DNA of 64,000 bases from contig NZ_JACBZN010000001.1 in the NCBI RefSeq assembly GCF_013408555.1, forward strand, positions 2,728,001 to 2,792,000. The letters run 5' to 3'. This stretch comes from Aeromicrobium tamlense. GTDB taxonomy: Bacteria > Actinomycetota > Actinomycetes > Propionibacteriales > Nocardioidaceae. Shown here piece by piece: positions 1,641-26,002 of this stretch (positions are counted from its first letter, which is position 1; every line of letters starts with the position of its first letter). Below the pieces are notes generated by a model. The model saw nothing but the letters and a program-made list of their open reading frames with translations, was not told where the DNA came from and did no database searches. A program made the translations under genes and the position numbers.

Positions 1641-3197
1641 GTGACAACATCTCTCGGACACGACGAGGTCCACCGCCGCCGCGCGCTCGCGCTGCGGCTC
1701 GGAGGCGTCGACCAGGTGGCTCGCCAGCACGCCCAGGGCAAGCTGACCGCCCGCGAGCGCATCGACCTGCTCGCCGACCTCGGCTCACTGCGAGAGTTCG
1801 GCATCCTCACCGGACGCTCCGAGTACTCCCCCGAGGGCGAGCTGCGTGACTTCGTCCCGAAGGGCCAGGTCGACGGGATCGTCGAGATCGAGGCCCGCCC
1901 TGCCGTCGTGAGCGCCGGAGACTTCACGGTTCGCGGCGGCGCGGGCGGAGTCGATGCGGTGGGCTTCGGGCGCGAGCCGCTGCCGGCGGAGCGCGCGCTG
2001 GAGATGGGAGTTCCGCTCATCCGGCTCCTCGACGCGAGCGGAGGCAGCGTCAAGAGCTTTCTGGACCTGGGCCGCACCTACCCCCCGGACGGCAACACCT
2101 TCGTCGCGCCCGAGGTGGAGCTGCTCCAGCTCGCACCGGTCGTGTCAGCGGTGATGGGGCCGGTCGCCGGGCTGCCCGCGGTCGCCGCGTGCCTCGGCCA
2201 CTTCAACGTCATGGTCAAGGAGACCTCGCAGCTGTTCCCCGGCGGGCCTCCGGTGGTGAAGGCCGCGCTCGGCCTGGACATCACCAAGGAGGAGCTCGGT
2301 GGCTGGCGCGTCCACGTCCACGAGAGCGGGTCGGTGAACAACGTGGCGGTGGACGAGCACGACGCCCTGGCTCAGGTCCGCGCGTTCCTGTCGTACCTGC
2401 CGACCAACGTGCACACGATGCCGCCGCGATCGGCACCACGCGGGCCCGGTACCGATCCGGACACCCTGCGCGACGTGATCCCCGAGGACGCCAGGACCCC
2501 CTTCGACCCTCGCGCCGTGATCGATGCGGTCGTCGACGAGGCGACGTTCTTCGAGCTGTCGCCCGCCTACGGTGGCTCACGGGTGACCGGGCTGGCCCGC
2601 GTCGACGGCTTTCCCGTGGGGATCATGGCGAACGACCCCGCGGTGCTCGGCGGGTCCACGGACACCGCTGCCGCGATGAAGACGATTCGGCTGATTCAGA
2701 TCTGCGACCAGTTCCACCTTCCCCTGGTCTCCCTCGCCGACGAGCCCGGCGTCCTGGTCGGCCCCGACTCGGAGCGCGCCGGGATCGAAGCGGCCGGCGC
2801 CCGCCTGGTGTGGTCCGTGTGCCGGAGCCGCATGCCCTGGATGACCGTCGTCATGGGCCGACTGTTCGGCGTCGGCGGACAGACGCACCACCGCGCCTCC
2901 GGGATGTTCCGCCGCATCGCCTGGCCCACCGCACAGTGGGGCTCCATGCACATCAGCGGCGGCACGTACGCCGCGTTCCGCAGCCAGATCGAGTCCGCAC
3001 CGGACCCGGAGGCCGAGCAGGCGCGCATCGAGGCGCAGCTGCGGGCGGTGACGTCACCGTTCCGTACCGCCGAGGCCACCGGCCAGGACATCGTCGACCC
3101 GGCGGAGACCCGCGACCTCGTCGTGCAGTTCGTCCGTGACGCGCAGCTGCCGCTGGCTCGCCAGCTCGGGCCCTCCCCCACCCCGTTCCTCCCCTGA
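1641..3197 (+). CDS. Acyl-CoA carboxylase, carboxyltransferase (beta) subunit
   Basis: A 518-residue biotin-dependent carboxyltransferase, which moves CO2 from carboxybiotin to an acyl-CoA. Size and sequence fit the propionyl-/methylcrotonyl-CoA carboxylase beta family, with two crotonase-like halves. Visible landmarks are the N-terminal GKLTARERIDLL, the glycine-rich GGAGGVDAVGFG, and in the second half GIMANDPAVLGGSTD followed by GVGGQTHHRASG. The open frame runs far upstream, but I use GTG 1641 because GGGGAAGGAA lies just before it and the family homology begins there. The biotin carboxylase subunit follows after 23 bases. The acyl-CoA used is not clear; a short or branched acyl-CoA is likely. 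Confidence 0.9.
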   Translation: MTTSLGHDEVHRRRALALRLGGVDQVARQHAQGKLTARERIDLLADLGSLREFGILTGRSEYSPEGELRDFVPKGQVDGIVEIEARPAVVSAGDFTVRGGAGGVDAVGFGREPLPAERALEMGVPLIRLLDASGGSVKSFLDLGRTYPPDGNTFVAPEVELLQLAPVVSAVMGPVAGLPAVAACLGHFNVMVKETSQLFPGGPPVVKAALGLDITKEELGGWRVHVHESGSVNNVAVDEHDALAQVRAFLSYLPTNVHTMPPRSAPRGPGTDPDTLRDVIPEDARTPFDPRAVIDAVVDEATFFELSPAYGGSRVTGLARVDGFPVGIMANDPAVLGGSTDTAAAMKTIRLIQICDQFHLPLVSLADEPGVLVGPDSERAGIEAAGARLVWSVCRSRMPWMTVVMGRLFGVGGQTHHRASGMFRRIAWPTAQWGSMHISGGTYAAFRSQIESAPDPEAEQARIEAQLRAVTSPFRTAEATGQDIVDPAETRDLVVQFVRDAQLPLARQLGPSPTPFLP

Positions 3198-16209: not shown

Positions 16210-18996
16210 TCAGCCGGTGTTGCGCAGGCCGTTGGCGATGCCGTTGACGGTCTGCAGCAGCGCGGCGCGCATGTCCTCGTCGACGGCGTCGGGGTCCTCG
16301 CGGTAGCGGGCCAGCAGGTCGACCTGGGCGAACGAGATCGGCTGGAGGTACGCGTCGCGCACCTCCAGCGTGCGGCGCAGCGCGGGCTGGTCGTCGAGCA
16401 CGTGCCGCTCGCCGGTGACGCGCAGCACCTCCTCCACGGTGACCGCGTGCTCGGCGCGGATGCGGTCGAAGATCGGTCGCAGGTCCGCCGGGACGAGGGT
16501 GTTCACGTAGTGCCCCGCGACGTCGAGGTCGGTCTTGGCCAGCGTCATCTCCACGTTCGAGATGAACGTGCGGAAGAAGTGCCACTTCTCGAGCATCTCG
16601 GCGAGCACGTCGGCCTGGCCGACGAGCCGCGCGGCGCGCAGGCCGCTGCCGACGCCGAACCAGCCCGGCACGATCTGGCGACTCTGGGTCCAGCCGAACA
16701 CCCACGGGATCGCCCGGAGGCCGTCGATGCCGCCGCCCGTCTCGGGCCGGCGCGACGGGCGCGAGCCGATGTTGAGGTCGCCGAGCTGGTCGACCGGGGT
16801 CGAGGCCAGGAAGTACTCGAACAGCCCCGGCGCGTCGATCAGCTTGCGGTAGGACTCGTAGGCCGCGTCGCTGACCTGCGTCATCGTGTCGTCCCACTGC
16901 TGCATCGACTCGGCGGGCGTGCGGGCCTGCAGGTGCAGGGTGGACGCCTCGAGCACGGCCGCGAACGACAGCTCGAGGTTCTCGTGGCCCAGGCGCGGCA
17001 GCGAGTACTTGTCGCTGATGACCTCGCCCTGCTCGGTGAACTTGATGTCGCCGGTGAGCACGCCGTACGGCTGGGCGAGGATCGCGTCGTAGGTGGGTCC
17101 GCCGCCACGGCCGACGGTGCCGCCACGGCCGTGGAACAGCCGCAGCGTGACACCGTGCTTCTGCGCCACGTCGCGCAGCGCGCGCTGGGCGCGGTGCAGC
17201 TCCCACTGCGAGGTGGTGATGCCACCGGCCTTGTTCGAGTCCGAGTAGCCGAGCATGACCTCCTGCGTGTCGTCGCGCAACCGCACGAGCGAGCGGTAGT
17301 GGTCGTCGGACAGCAGCTCGTCGAGGACGTCGCCGGCGCGACGGATCTCGTCGACCGTCTCCAGCAGCGGGACGAAGCCGAGCCGCGCGAAGGGCGGCGT
17401 CTCGTCGCTGCCGACGAGGTCGACCAGGCCGGCCTGCCGGGCCAGCACGACCGGCGCGAGGAGGTCGTCCCCGCCGAGCGTCATCGACACGATGTAGGAC
17501 TCGATGACGTCCTCGCCGAAGGTCTCCTTCAGCTCGCGCACCGCGGTGAAGACCCCGTATGTGCGCGCGCCCCACTCGTCGAGGGCGGGCGGATCGGCCG
17601 ACAGCGGCCGCAGTCGGCCCAGCTCGCGCGACAGCAGCGCGAAACGCTCGCCGCGGTCGAGCTCGGCGTAGGGCGTCTCGGACTCGTCGAGGCGGTCGTA
17701 CAGGATGCCGAGCGCGTGGTGGTGGGCCTCGGCGTGCTCGCGAATGTCCATCGTGGCCAGGTGCAGCCCCACCGAGGAGATCGCGCGGATCGCGCGCGCC
17801 AGCATGCGGTCGGCGATGAGCTCGCCGCCGTTCGCGCGCAGCGACGCGTCGACGACGCGCAGGTCGGCCAGCAGCTCGTCGCGGTTGGCATAGTCGCGTC
17901 CGGGCACGTGGGGCGTGCCGTCGGCGACGCGCGCCGCCGAGTTCGCGACCTTGAGCTTCACGCACGACAGCTTGAGCCGGTAGGGCTCGTGGGCGTTCAC
18001 GAGCAGCAGTCGCGGGTCGAGGTCGGGCAGGGCCGTGAGGTCGGCCTGCAGCGACTTCGTCAGCTCGGCGCTGACCTCGACGAGCTCGTCGGACGACGAC
18101 AGCTCGCGGATCAGCAGGTCGAGGTTGGTGTCGACGATGCGCGTGGCGATGCGGTTCTGCAGCCGCAGGATGTCGAGGGTGACCTGCGGGGTCACGTTGG
18201 GGTTGCCGTCGCGGTCGCCGCCGATCCACGTGCCGAACGACAGAGGACGGTGCGCGGGATCGAGGACGATGTCGTGCTCGGCCAGCCGGTCGGCGAGGTC
18301 GGTGCCGATGTCGGGCAGCGCCTCCTCGAGGATCTGCTGGAGGAAGAACACGAGGTGCCGCGCCTCGTCCACGGGCGTGGGCCGCGTGCGGCGGACGGCG
18401 TCGGTCTGCCAGATGAGGTCGATCAGCTGCGCCAGGTCGCGGTCCTGCGCGGTGCGTCGACGCGTGCCCGGCTCGGCGGAGTCGAGCAGGATGTCGGCGA
18501 TGCGACGCAGCTTGGTCAGCACCGTGCGGCGGCTGACCTCGGTGGGGTGCGCGGTGAAGATCGCACGCACGTCGATCCGCTCGATGCCCTCGCGCAGCGC
18601 GTCGACGCCCTGCTCGGCGACGATGTCCTCGATCGCGCGGGCGAGCCAGCCGCCGTCGTCGGGCCGCGACTCGATCCCGCGCACGCGCGCGACCTGCTCG
18701 GCCACGTTGGCGAGATTGAAGTAGACGCTGAACGCCCGCACGAGCTTGCCCACCGTGGCGGCGTCGAGGTCGGACAGCAGGGCGCGGATCCGGGTGGCGG
18801 CCTCGTGCCGCTCGTCGGCGTCGTCGGAGTCCTCGATGATCTTGCCCTGCGCGCGGACCAGCTCGACCTGCTCGAAGAGGTGCTCGCCCTCGAGGCGGCG
18901 CAGGGTCTGGCCCAGCAGGTCGCCCACGCGGCGCACGTCGTGGCGCAGTGAGTCGTCCTTGGAACGGGCGATGGCGTCGAACTCGGAGTCGGTCAC
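16210..18996 (-). CDS. ppc: Phosphoenolpyruvate carboxylase
   Basis: A 928-residue enzyme that adds bicarbonate to PEP to give oxaloacetate (anaplerosis). The first catalytic His is in [14 protein letters not shown] (His150). The second signature is [19 protein letters not shown], followed by [19 protein letters not shown]. The C-terminus NGLRNTG is the usual PEPC ending and helps form the active site. The GTG start has GAGGGGAG upstream, and a TAGGCT -10 box lies at 19046-19051. Length is normal and the gene is intact. Confidence 0.96.
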
Positions 18997-19077: not shown

Positions 19078-19362
19078 TCAGCGCGTGTGGTGGACGACCG
19101 CGTCGACGAGGTCGCGCCACGGGCCGTCGACCTGCCGCTCGGGCAGGGTCGCCTCGCGATCGTTGGCCCGGACCTCGTAGACGAATCCGTCGGGGTGGCC
19201 GTCGTCCGGAGTGGCGTCCCACGGGCACGCCTCGACCAGCGGCCACCAGACCTGGGCCTCATCCTCGCTGGTGGCCTCGACCTCCCACTGCCGGCGCAGG
19301 CCGGCGAAGCCGCCGGTGCGGGTCACCCGGACGACGAGGAGGGGCTGGTCGATTCCATCCAT
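19078..19362 (-). CDS. Emfourin-like inhibitor of the adjacent M4 protease
   Basis: About 94 residues with the pattern of protealysin inhibitor emfourin: an early LLVVRVTRTGGFAG, then RQWEVEATSEDEAQVWWPLVEA and PDGFVYEVRANDREATLPER. It begins inside the 3' end of the M4 protease gene, overlapping by 40 bases in another frame, so the two are one transcript and probably translationally linked. Emfourins bind and block protealysin-like M4 proteases, commonly from the same operon. A longer GTG start at 19380 is possible. Assignment rests on size, sequence pattern and gene order. Confidence 0.8.
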   Translation of the reverse strand: MDGIDQPLLVVRVTRTGGFAGLRRQWEVEATSEDEAQVWWPLVEACPWDATPDDGHPDGFVYEVRANDREATLPERQVDGPWRDLVDAVVHHTR

Positions 19363-20366
19363 ACCCCCACAGACTGCCACGCGTCGCGCACCACGTCAGC
19401 CGCGTCGTGGTTCTCGGCGACCGCGACCGTGGCACGCGCGAACTCCTCGAACGTGGCGCGCGGCGAGAGGTCACCCAGCAGCGTCTCGTACCAGATCCGG
19501 CCGGCCACCTCCCAGGCGTGGCCGCCGAGCCCGGTGGCCACGAGGTGGAACGCCTTGTTGGGGATGCCCGAGTTCAGGTGGACGCCGCCGTTGTCCTGCC
19601 GGGTCTCGACGAAGTCGTCCATGTGGGCGGGCTGCGGGTCCTTGCCGAGGACGTCGTCGTCGTAGGCCGTGCCCGGCGCGCTCATCGACCGCAGCGCGCG
19701 ACCCTCGACGGCGTCGGTGAACAGGCCCTCGCCGATGAGCCACGAGGCCTCGTCGGCGGTCTGGCCCGCGGCGCGCTGCTCGACGAGCGCGCCGAAGACG
19801 TCGGCGACGGACTCGTTGAGGGCGCCGGACTGGTCGCGGTAGACCAGACCGACGGTGTACTCGACGAGACCGTGCGCGAGCTCGTGGCCGATCACCGAGA
19901 GCGACGCGGTGAAGCGGCCGAAGATCTCGCCGTCGCCGTCGCCGAACACCATCTGCGAGCCGTCCCAGAAGGCGTTGTCGTACGCGTTGCCGTAGTGCAC
20001 GGTGCCCAGCAGCGGCAGTCCGGCGTCGTCGATCGACTGCCGGGCGTAGACCGCGCGGAGGAGGTCGTCGGTGGCGCCGAAGCCGTCGTAGGCCTCGTCG
20101 GCCGCGACGTCGCCCGTGGGCGGGTCGCCCTCGTCGCGCACGACCTCGCCCGGCAGCTCGGTGCCGTTCCGCGCGTCGTGCACCGTGCGGCGCAGCGGCA
20201 CGGTGGTGGCCGGCGGCCGGGCCGACGGGTGCGCGTGCCCGCCGTGCTCGGGACGCTCGGCGAGCGCGGCCTGGGCTGCCTGGGCCGCCGTGGCGTAGCG
20301 GTCGTCCTCGAGGCCGGCGATGTGGCGAAGAAGGTAGGGCGGGACGATCCCCCGAATCGTGTCCAT
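19323..20366 (-). CDS. Protealysin-like M4 metalloprotease
   Basis: A 347-residue zinc protease of the thermolysin (M4) family. The zinc motif is IGHELAHGLVEYT, the third ligand Glu is in GALNESVADVFG, and the catalytic His is in NGGVHLNSGIPN. It lacks both a signal peptide and the long propeptide of thermolysin. Instead it starts MDTIRGIVPPYLLRHIA, the short propeptide motif of the protealysin subfamily. I use ATG 20364-20366 because that motif begins there. It probably stays in the cytosol or leaves by a non-classical route. The emfourin-like gene overlaps its 3' end. Confidence 0.9.
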   Translation of the reverse strand: MDTIRGIVPPYLLRHIAGLEDDRYATAAQAAQAALAERPEHGGHAHPSARPPATTVPLRRTVHDARNGTELPGEVVRDEGDPPTGDVAADEAYDGFGATDDLLRAVYARQSIDDAGLPLLGTVHYGNAYDNAFWDGSQMVFGDGDGEIFGRFTASLSVIGHELAHGLVEYTVGLVYRDQSGALNESVADVFGALVEQRAAGQTADEASWLIGEGLFTDAVEGRALRSMSAPGTAYDDDVLGKDPQPAHMDDFVETRQDNGGVHLNSGIPNKAFHLVATGLGGHAWEVAGRIWYETLLGDLSPRATFEEFARATVAVAENHDAADVVRDAWQSVGVWMESTSPSSSSG

Positions 20367-20500
20367 GTCCCGACCGTAGACGTCGGCACCGACATCGCGC
20401 GCGCCGACGACTGCCACGTGAGACCGGCGTGGCCGACCGGCTGCCCGGACTGGCCGATCGGCCGAGGCGGCCGTCTTCGTCGCCCGGTTAGCGTGCCGTC

Positions 20501-21157
20501 ATGGCCACCTGGACCCTGCGCGACCGCGGCCGCGACCTCGCCGTGCGCGACGACGGGACCGGTGGCCTCGTGCTGTCGCTCGACGGCGTCGAGGTCGACG
20601 AGGCCACGGTCGGACGGCTCGGCGACCACGAGTTCGAGCTCGACCGGATCGCCGGCCGCCACCAGAAGGTCAAGGCCGAGCGAGGGGTCGGCGCGACGCT
20701 GTCGAAGGTCGTGCTGGTGGAGTCCGGCCACGGCGACCTGCCCGTCACCGTGCCGTTCGTGCCACCGGAGGGCACCCGCGCCCGCCGCCTGCACGACCTG
20801 CGCGAGGCCCACCCGAAGGCCTGGGCGGCCCGGCACGTCGTGTTCAGCGTCGTCGGACTGCTCGGCATCGGCGCCCTCGTGTCGGCCCTGCTCGGCCGCC
20901 TCGTTCCGGCGATCGACTGGTCGTGGCTGCCCGACGCGCCGGACGTGAACCTGCCCGAGGTCGGCTTCGAGTTCTCGTTCCCGAGCTGGCTGCGGTACCT
21001 CAACCCGTTCTTCTGGCTCGGCCGCGTCACGCCCGACTGGCTGGCCGACCTGCCGTGGGGCGTGATCATCTCCCTGCTCGTGGCGTGCAGCCTCGCGTGG
21101 GGCGAGTACCGCAAGCAGCAGGACCGCAAGGAGCGCGAGGAGCGCACCGACGACTGA
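20501..21157 (+). CDS. Membrane protein of unknown function (two TM segments)
   Basis: 218 residues. About 105 N-terminal residues form a soluble, strand-rich domain (WTLRDRGRDLAVRDDGTGG). A first membrane segment follows near 111-135 (VVFSVVGLLGIGALVSALLG), then an aromatic, proline-rich loop (SFPSWLRYLNPFFWLGRV), a second segment near 185-203 (VIISLLVACSLAWG) and a charged C-terminal tail. I do not recognise the family. TAGCGT at 20489-20494 lies 6 bases before the ATG, so the mRNA is probably leaderless. It diverges from the M4 protease and converges on the next membrane protein gene. Confidence 0.7.
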   Translation: MATWTLRDRGRDLAVRDDGTGGLVLSLDGVEVDEATVGRLGDHEFELDRIAGRHQKVKAERGVGATLSKVVLVESGHGDLPVTVPFVPPEGTRARRLHDLREAHPKAWAARHVVFSVVGLLGIGALVSALLGRLVPAIDWSWLPDAPDVNLPEVGFEFSFPSWLRYLNPFFWLGRVTPDWLADLPWGVIISLLVACSLAWGEYRKQQDRKEREERTDD

Positions 21158-22087: not shown

Positions 22088-22462
22088 TCAGCGCTGGCGG
22101 CGCCAGACGGTGACCTGGCGGTCGCCGTAGAGCGCGGGGAGGTTCTGTGGGGCGCGCGCCTGGGCCAGCTCGGCCTGCAGCTCGGCGACCTTCGCCTGCA
22201 GCGCGGTCACCTGGTTCTCCAGCGCGATGACGCGCTTCACGCCCTCGAGCCCGAGGCCCTCGGCGGTCAGCTGGGCCACCATCCGCAGCAGCTCGATGTC
22301 GCGCAGCGAGTAGCGACGGCCGCCGCCGGACGTGCGACCGGCCTCGACGAGGCCGATCCGGTCGTACGTGCGCAGGGTCTGCGGGTGCAGGCCCGACAGC
22401 TCCGCGGCGATGCTGATGACGAAGACCTTGGCCTCCGGTCCCGGCGGGACGAATTCATTCAT
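22088..22462 (-). CDS. hspR: Heat-shock repressor HspR (MerR family)
   Basis: A 124-residue MerR-type regulator. The winged helix is at about residues 13-80 ([25 protein letters not shown] written in two parts: [25 protein letters not shown]), with [15 protein letters not shown], followed by a coiled-coil segment ([19 protein letters not shown]). HspR binds HAIR operators with DnaK as co-repressor and switches off the dnaK operon. It is the last gene of that operon, overlapping dnaJ by 4 bases (ATGA), which gives a feedback loop. Confidence 0.95.
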
Positions 22463-23565
22463 GAGGTACTCCCGATCCTTGCGGCACGGTAGGCCTCGAT
22501 CGCGGCCAGCTCGTCGGCCGACGGCTCGTGCGGCACCTGCACCTCGACGGTGACGAGCAGGTCGCCGCGGGTGCCGTCGCGGCGGGTGCCGCCCTTGCCG
22601 CGCGCCCGGAACGTGCGGCCGTTGGGGGTGCCGGCGGGCACCTTGAGCTTGACCGGTGGACCGTCGATCGTGGGAGCGCTGACCTCGCCGCCGAGCACCG
22701 CGTCGTCGAACGACAGCGGCACCGTGACCGTGAGGTCGTCGCCCTTGCGCCCGAAGCGCTCGTCACCCTCGACGTGGACCACGAGGAAGAGGTCGCCGGC
22801 GGGTGCGCCGGTGTCGCCCTTCGCGCCCTTGCCGCGGATCTTGATTCGCTGGCCGTCCTTGACGCCCGCGGGCACCTTGACGTTGATCGTGCGGCTCGAC
22901 GGCGCGCGGCCCGAGCCCGCGCACACCTCGCACGGGTGCTCCACGATGAGCCCGCGACCGCGGCACTGGCGGCACGGCTCGGTCATCGCGAACACGCCAC
23001 CCGAGGCGCTGGTCTGCATGCCGCTGCCCTGGCAGTTGCCGCACACCTTCGGCACGGTTCCGGGCTTGGCCCCGGTGCCGTGGCACATCGAGCAGGGCTC
23101 GTCGCTGGTGAGCCGCAGCGGGATCGTGGCGCCCTCCACCGCCTGGCGGAAGGTGATCGTGGCCTCGGTCTCGAGGTCGTCGCCCCGGCGCGGCTGCGCC
23201 TGGCGGCGCCGTCCGCCGCGAGCCCCGCCGCCGCCGAAGATGCCGCCCAGGATGTCGCCGAGGTCGAAGTCGACGCCCCCGCCGTACGAGCCGCCCCCGG
23301 GCGGCGGGAAGCCACCCTTGAACTGCCCGAACAGCGAGCGCTGCTCGTCGTACTGCTTGCGCTTCTCGGCGTTCCCGACGACCCCGTACGCCTCCGAGAT
23401 CGCCTTGAAGCGCTCCTCGGCCTGGGCGTTGCCGGGGTTGGAGTCGGGGTGGTGGTCCCGCGCCAGCTTGCGGTACGCCTTCTTGATCTCGTCGGCCGAG
23501 GCATCCTTCTTGACGCCCAGGACCGCGTAGAAGTCCTTCGACGCCCAGTCAGTCGGTGCGCTCAT
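22459..23565 (-). CDS. dnaJ: Chaperone DnaJ (Hsp40)
   Basis: A 368-residue type I J-protein. The J-domain (about 8-75) contains the HPD motif ([10 protein letters not shown]). A Gly/Phe-rich region follows ([15 protein letters not shown]). The zinc region has all four CxxCxGxG repeats: [24 protein letters not shown] and CEVCAGSG. Two C-terminal substrate domains complete it. It delivers unfolded proteins to DnaK and stimulates its ATPase. It lies between grpE and hspR, overlapping hspR by 4 bases. Confidence 0.96.
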
Positions 23566-23594
23566 TCACCCCTCCTCCCTCGTCGTGCTCTCGT

Positions 23595-24163
23595 TCAGTC
23601 CTCGGTAGTCGGCTGCTCGGTGGCCGCCGCGGCGGCACCCGGGTCGACGACCCCCACCACGGCGGGCCGCAGGACGCGGTCGCCGACGCGGTAGCCGGTG
23701 CGCATGACCTGCGCGATGCTCTGCACCTCGACCTCGGGGTCCTCGCCCGCGTGGAAGACGGCCTCGTGCAGGTTCGGGTCGAACGGCTCGCCGACCGCCC
23801 CGAACGACTCGAGGTCGAACTTGCCCAGGGCACCACGCAGCTGGTCGGCGACGGCCCTGAAGCCGCCCGTCAGCTCGCCGTGCTCCTCGGCGCGACCGAG
23901 GTCGTCGAGCACGGTCAGCAGCTCGGCCAGGACCTTCTGCTTGCCGGTCTCGACCGCGCGGACGCGGTCGTCCTCGACGCGGCGCTTGTAGTTGATGAAC
24001 TCTGCCTGCTTGCGCTGGAGGTCGTTCGTGAGCTCGGCGACCTTCGCCTCGAGGTCGGCGACGGCGTCGGGCGCGGGCTGCGTCTCGGCGGCCGGCTCCG
24101 TCTCGGCGCCGCCGACGGGCGCCTCCCCTTCAGGGGAGGTCGCCTCGTCGAACGGCTGCTCGG

Positions 24164-24167
<4 letters not shown>
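23595..24167 (-). CDS. grpE: Nucleotide exchange factor GrpE
   Basis: 190 residues. An acidic, low-complexity N-terminus (about 1-40) is followed by a long coiled coil ([32 protein letters not shown]) and the beta-domain ([28 protein letters not shown]). GrpE releases ADP from DnaK. The GTG start overlaps the dnaK stop (GTGA, 24164-24167). A GC-rich hairpin lies in its first codons at 24122-24139. Confidence 0.95.

Positions 24168-26002
<1,835 letters not shown>

Follow-up and report, generated by a model that had tools for sequence, protein, structure and literature searches.

In the genome of Aeromicrobium tamlense, which is assembled as a single contig of 3.37 Mb, the last 40 nucleotides of a metalloprotease gene are also the first of a gene for a small protein of an inhibitor family. 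This raises the question of whether the overlap ties synthesis of the inhibitor to that of the enzyme, as the preliminary description of the locus had proposed, and what such a pair may do in the cell. The locus was examined within a stretch of 64,000 nucleotides of the contig (the window), to which all positions refer. The pair comprises:

20366..19323, minus strand: protealysin-like M4 metalloprotease gene (ATG at 20366, stop at 19323; 347 aa)
19362..19078, minus strand: emfourin-type inhibitor gene (ATG at 19362, stop at 19078; 94 aa)
19323..19362, minus strand: overlap of the two genes (40 nt; same length in seven Aeromicrobium species)

Both Peptidase_M4 and Peptidase_M4_C were above their Pfam cut-offs in the protease, and phmmer aligned its residues 3-335, the propeptide motif among them, to the precursor of protealysin (2vqx) at an E-value of 2.9e-111, in agreement with the M4 protease of protealysin type described earlier. 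The zinc-binding and catalytic motifs are intact (HELAH at 161-165, Glu185 as the third ligand and the catalytic His263 of DNGGVH). A short propeptide with the PPYLL motif, also described earlier, was recovered in the alignment to 2vqx from residue 3, with the PLN_propep match falling under its cut-off (16.7 versus 28.1 bits). The two proteins share a PPY-L propeptide, and the R-G-I-V of the window protease ahead of PPYLL resembles the RS-VI autoprocessing site, which in Serratia protealysin lies upstream of the PPL motif (PMC6778150, available portion). They differ at the other end, where the window protease has a 12-residue C-terminal tail past the VGV end that is nearly all encoded by the overlap. 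The nearest named record was a protease of Aeromicrobium flavum at 86% identity, in a comparison that may omit records very close to it, and in G000 the window protease had one match, itself.

Residues 1-45 of the protease lack a hydrophobic stretch (best 12-residue Kyte-Doolittle mean, 0.88), and hence no signal peptide is apparent, as had been noted. The label 'cytosolic' given to the protease at the same time has that absence as its one basis, and an intracellular location is predicted only to that extent.

The emfourin-like identity of the second gene product was borne out by a match of the 94-aa protein to PF20242 (Emfourin) at 41.7 bits against a cut-off of 27 (E 1.6e-10). PDB searches with the single inhibitor sequence returned no emfourin match, and the relationship was found only via a profile of 16 inhibitors, for which emfourin 6zyg, at E 9.3e-9, was the sole PDB match within a limit of E 10. 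The GG and D motifs are invariant across these 16 aligned members. The window inhibitor thus shares with M4in (6zyg) and PF20242 the profile match and both motifs, but is 94 aa long as compared with a 113-residue chain, and the match in fold is modest. A Foldseek search with the inhibitor model gave no significant match (best E 0.19), and VIA-align of the AF2 model with 6zyg gave a Z of 4.6 and an rmsd of 5.8 over 74 aligned residues. In the same comparison, Mago nashi entries (Z up to 6.9, a middling value; rmsd about 3) outranked the NMR emfourin entry 6zyg.

The coordinates, the 40-nt overlap and the different frame of the emfourin-like gene on the same strand had been described exactly. 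The overlap encodes the tail of the protease (...STSPSSSSG-stop) together with the start of the inhibitor, MDGIDQPLLVVRV, which runs into strand beta-1, and the TGA stop codon of the protease is embedded in GTGA. Counted from the stop codon of the protease, the inhibitor has three candidate starts, namely GTG at -55, ATG at -37 and GTG at -1. The last of these, a GTGA start-stop with the protease stop, is the sole later start ahead of the conserved RTGG, and its use would delete residues 9-12 of beta-1 (9-17 in the inhibitor model). The inhibitors of the larger group among the other Aeromicrobium loci, 10 in number, start with MD(E/D)LPFVI (ATG in eight, GTG in two), mostly preceded by an AGGAGG-like site. 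The same place is occupied in the overlap genes by MD..(H/D)QPLLVVRV(I/T)RTGG in 6/7 and by MEHAADPVLVVRVIRTGG in the seventh, L121; MDELPFVI..VRSGGFAGLRREW of the other genes is the counterpart of MDELHQPLLVVRVIRTGGFAGLRRQW in L118. As GTG at -1 would cut into beta-1 and the ATG matches the mostly Shine-Dalgarno-led start of the other genes, ATG 19362 is the best candidate for the inhibitor start as judged by sequence and model, and the overlap does not depend on the choice of start.

Overlap in Aeromicrobium and its origin

A search of 49 Aeromicrobium genomes with the protease identified a close homologue (E 6.2e-109 or better) in 19, and an emfourin gene lies directly downstream on the same strand in 19/19. 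The latter count was obtained with our own inhibitor profile, to which 16 of the 19 were new. Given that PF20242 detects the inhibitor in only 7/49 of these genomes as against 19/19 for the profile, the Pfam tallies of emfourin in the family (at least 33/149 genomes) and the class (at least 119/393) are lower bounds.

The 40-nt overlap is found, unchanged in length, in seven genomes (G000, G088, G056, G121, G077, G037 and G149). The same overlap in seven species with proteases 74-100% identical to that of the window is more than chance would give. The other 12 loci include 11 with spaced genes and one (L130) with a 4-nt ATGA overlap. Read in the protease frame, the first codons of the inhibitor give the protease tail W(M/T).STSPSSS(S/Y)G in six of the overlap loci and WSTQPTRSSSSG in L121. 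Among the seven, 14/36 columns of the overlap are variable, as are 22/72 of the following inhibitor stretch and 73/150 of the preceding protease stretch, and the overlap varies too little to prove on which of the two frames selection acts.

In a quick tree of 111/124 protease rows (duplicates were removed beforehand; two fragments and 11 distant rows were left out), the seven overlap loci form one clade (SH-aLRT 99) within a 40-row clade (99) of otherwise split pairs. The tree carries SH-aLRT support only, 33 of its 108 inner branches are open, and some branches are long. Because the overlap clade is nested in a clade of split arrangements, a single origin of the overlap is most likely, through loss of the spacer in a split pair. 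Its birth by frameshift of a fused gene is not favoured, given the same position in the split-pair clade (99/99).

Translation starts and a predicted coupling

The following features lie ahead of the two starts:

20373..20378, minus strand: TACGGT, a predicted -10 promoter element for a leaderless mRNA, its first T 12 positions ahead of the protease ATG (-12)
19363..19382, minus strand: 20 nt before the inhibitor ATG, with no clear Shine-Dalgarno site (duplex energy -3.5 kcal/mol)

In 7/7 overlap loci, TAC(G/C)GT precedes the protease start, with the first T at -12; in L119 and L121 the box fits an ATG located 12 and 7 codons, respectively, before VPP, and L121 has another ATG without a box. 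TANNNT is present at -12 in 8/11 evaluable other Aeromicrobium loci and at -13 in one more, while two have a Shine-Dalgarno site (-8.5) instead; one further locus is truncated. By comparison, TANNNT occurs at -12 of only 4/3468 ATG/GTG positions of the window. Boxes of the TANNNT type about 12 bp before the start are reported to mark leaderless genes, which are frequent in Actinobacteria and average 19.2% of genes in those where such boxes were found (PMC3160421, available portion). The 7/7 occurrence at -12 therefore predicts a leaderless mRNA, from which the protease would be made. Outside Aeromicrobium, the box was found at -11 to -13 in 7/91 evaluable loci, with 23 further loci that lack a recognisable propeptide motif left unjudged. 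Hence, a leaderless protease start does not appear to be general beyond the genus.

The inhibitor start was assessed by the pairing energy of the 16 nt ahead of it with the 16S tail. This energy is -3.5 kcal/mol in three of the overlap loci and -5.8 in the other four, whereas the remaining 12 Aeromicrobium loci range from -6.6 to -14.8 kcal/mol, with 10 at or below -10. At 3000 random window positions the median is -3.0, the 25th percentile -5.3 and the 10th percentile -6.6, so the weak anti-Shine-Dalgarno match in 4/7 overlap loci falls between the 10th and 25th percentiles, and ribosomes may initiate independently there. The overlap clade is without a clear ribosome-binding site for the inhibitor, though -5.8 is not nothing. 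The absence of a clear site from 7/7 overlap loci, against strong sites in 10/12 other Aeromicrobium loci, supports translational coupling, in which synthesis of the inhibitor in this clade would depend on ribosomes that have translated the protease. RNA hairpins over the inhibitor start were no better than those of shuffled sequences (z 1.26 and 0.84), and RNA structure at the nested start is not supported as a coupling device. The earlier claim that the overlap ties inhibitor to protease synthesis thus gained indirect support from the missing Shine-Dalgarno sites and none from the predicted folds.

Gene anatomy, family membership, conservation, the lack of a Shine-Dalgarno site and the TANNNT box at -12 were all computed in the window and its relatives. 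The probable overall explanation is an operon of protealysin and emfourin that follows the known pln-m4in type, with a leaderless protease mRNA, a coupled nested inhibitor gene and a double lock. The mRNA would begin at the protease ATG and give rise to an intracellular metalloprotease locked by its propeptide. On ending the protease, ribosomes would then initiate again at the nested ATG of the inhibitor, or reach it by slipping some 40 nt back, and, with no clear ribosome-binding site there, protease synthesis would bring inhibitor synthesis along. Emfourin would fill the active site 1:1 as the second lock, and the protease would act only once the inhibitor is outrun or lost, as in stress or lysis. 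By homology, the window pair would be a doubly locked intracellular protease; inhibition in Aeromicrobium, the leaderless transcript, the coupling and the trigger are what we infer.

Two other explanations concern the overlap itself. It may be neutral, a by-product of an intergenic deletion of about 50 nt (estimated by eye), with the inhibitor translated independently at an adequate rate and no regulatory meaning attached. Spaced Aeromicrobium loci do contain a stretch seemingly missing from the overlap loci, nucleotide variation within the overlap is unremarkable, and overlap lengths in prokaryotes are reported to be fat-tailed, such that one exceeding the modal 4 bp needs no special cause (PMC2174442, available portion). 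However, the same source ties same-strand overlaps, which tend to be short, to translational coupling, and in these loci the Shine-Dalgarno site was lost along with the spacer, yet the inhibitor is intact and the length of the overlap is unchanged in seven species. A neutral overlap is therefore considered possible but doubtful; as the rest of the system would be as in the coupled double-lock explanation, the odds of the two overlap. The other explanation, a programmed frameshift in the overlap that yields a fused protease-inhibitor protein like the natural fusions of related genera, could draw on the existence of those homologues and on an inhibitor frame that is open as far back as -70, counted from the protease stop. 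It was rejected as highly improbable, since no canonical slippery heptamer was seen by eye, the G run is lost in one overlap locus (GTGGGTGT in L116), and the overlap clade sits in the split part of the tree. The coupled double-lock operon remains the preferred explanation.

Fused and unlinked relatives

Relatives beyond Aeromicrobium bear on what the inhibitor is for. Of the 80 loci found in a protease-only search, 66 are protealysin-like, with a tblastn E-value of 1e-72 or better, and the other 14 are distant M4 loci. Emfourin is adjacent to or fused with the protease in 63/66 of the former and 0/14 of the latter; the misses are L047 (at a contig end), L084 and L090, and L091 was counted through the refined profile only. 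In 17 of the 63 emfourin-bearing loci, protease and emfourin domain form a single polypeptide, with emfourin on the C-terminal side. With loci from the emfourin search of the family added, the set includes 37 fused, 62 split and seven overlap rows. One fused form, that of Micropruina glycogenica (L049), is on a complete chromosome. Six of the 37 fused proteins were tested against Pfam, and each of the six combined M4, M4_C and Emfourin; in the fused protein of L093, Emfourin was just below cut-off (25.5 versus 27 bits).

The 37 fusion linkers, with the last five residues excluded, consist of P/A/G/T/S/E/D to 85% and of L/I/V/F/M/Y/W to 7.6%. They thus contain few of the hydrophobic residues favoured at P1' by protealysin-like proteases (PMC6778150), though ordinary linkers may look alike. 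In the model of the L049 fusion (pLDDT 87.3, pTM 0.75), both domains are confident and the linker is loose, with scores that do not give docking; its protease domain matched 2vqx at a Z of 47.7. On the quick tree, the label 'fused' requires five changes, at least two of which are forced by well-supported branches. One split pair, L020 (G028), is nested among fused forms and may be a fission of a fused gene.

In a class-wide sample of newly fetched loci (L135-L163), 26/29 have a protealysin-like protease adjacent to or fused with emfourin, the fused ones being L142 and L152. The remaining three (L149, L151 and L153 of genomes G385, G413 and G207) belong to one genus and have the protease and emfourin on different contigs, with no emfourin within 1.5 kb of the protease loci. 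Three genomes of this genus were examined, two more emfourin-positive genomes being left out, and the unlinked emfourin and protease loci are L149, L151 and L153 together with L164-L166. As relatives carry the pair spaced, fused or unlinked, the overlap is not needed for the partnership, and the unlinked genomes show that it does not require linkage either. These fused and unlinked forms are more surprising than the overlap. A literature search mostly without subscription papers turned up no account of protease-emfourin fusions or of the 40-nt overlap, which is no proof of novelty.

Two loci were of separate note. In Nocardioides sp. Root140 (L090:2968-5112), the protealysin-like protease without emfourin has C-terminal repeated VVYR..DGHLHEL-like units in a region that looks propeller-like by eye and has no Pfam match. 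In L028:286-1770 (G052, 77% complete), HATPase_c_2 and an emfourin domain share one open frame, which may be real or an assembly artefact, and no protealysin-like protease was found within the locus.

The neighbourhood of the pair in the window was also considered:

16210..18996, minus strand: phosphoenolpyruvate carboxylase gene (PF00311), next downstream, a conserved neighbour outside the system
20501-21157, plus strand: divergent gene for a 218-aa protein with no Pfam match
22088-26002, minus strand: gene for a MerR-type regulator after genes resembling dnaK, grpE and dnaJ

The phosphoenolpyruvate carboxylase gene follows the pair in 6/7 overlap loci and was absent from the 1.5-kb flank of L121. 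In 4/7 of them, the window included, the 218-aa protein or one homologous to it is encoded upstream of the protease. The genes at 22088-26002, which we take from their sequences to be dnaK, grpE and dnaJ, are presumably a heat-shock operon.

A different role has been proposed for the Serratia pair on the grounds that protealysin cleaves FtsZ and RecA and that the operon layout resembles effector-immunity loci (PMC9505478, available portion). The protease would be delivered into competitors, and emfourin would guard the producer and its kin. The occurrence of emfourin encoded apart from the protease is in keeping with this role, as an immunity gene could be so placed. However, the window protease is without an apparent signal peptide, and no delivery protein was found among the five neighbouring proteins scanned (phosphoenolpyruvate carboxylase, an AMP-binding enzyme, the MerR regulator and two with no Pfam match), a scan confined to the neighbours. 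The fusions (17/63) argue against effector-immunity as a general role, since the inhibitor would travel with the enzyme, a poor fit unless the linker is cut. Delivery is considered improbable, and the fusions argue for an emfourin that would regulate its own protease rather than serve only as immunity against a delivered effector.

If emfourin is such a regulator, it may mainly set the ratio of lock to protease, a proposal made tentatively and considered rather unlikely as a whole. Lineages would fix this ratio by separate genes, by a Shine-Dalgarno-led second gene behind a leaderless protease gene, by a nested gene without a Shine-Dalgarno site, or by fusion behind a Pro/Ala/Gly-rich linker. 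In Aeromicrobium with Shine-Dalgarno-led inhibitor genes, conditions favouring leaderless translation would raise the protease above the inhibitor and thereby activate the enzyme; this switch would have been lost in the overlap clade, and the fused forms would be self-locked. With regard to the purpose of emfourin, the fusions and the coupled- and uncoupled-looking loci are test cases for a built-in regulator of an intracellular protease, and structural studies of M4 protease inhibition would find ready-made covalent complexes in the fusions.

Comparison with known systems

The closest known system is pln-m4in of Serratia proteamaculans, in which protease and inhibitor are encoded in one operon and emfourin and protealysin form a 1:1 complex in the active site region (PMC9505478). 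Protealysin accumulates in the Serratia cell as an inactive precursor (PMC6778150), it cuts its substrates only without emfourin, and deletion of m4in has a phenotype (PMC9505478). The Aeromicrobium locus resembles pln-m4in in having the same two families in one operon, with the inhibitor gene next downstream on the same strand, and the Serratia protease is an intracellular precursor (PMC9505478, PMC6778150). It differs in the lack of a clear Shine-Dalgarno site for the inhibitor, the predicted leaderless protease mRNA and the actinobacterial host; the 40-nt overlap was read from the Aeromicrobium genes alone.

The pair had also been likened to a toxin-antitoxin system with the inhibitor second. 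As in toxin-antitoxin and effector-immunity loci, a potentially harmful enzyme and a stoichiometric inhibitor share an operon, whereas here the enzyme has its own propeptide lock and the inhibitor can be fused to the enzyme in relatives. The likeness is a loose one, a protease and its inhibitor in one operon being the known layout of pln-m4in (PMC9505478). The system as such is already known, and the overlap is a conserved new variant of it in Aeromicrobium.
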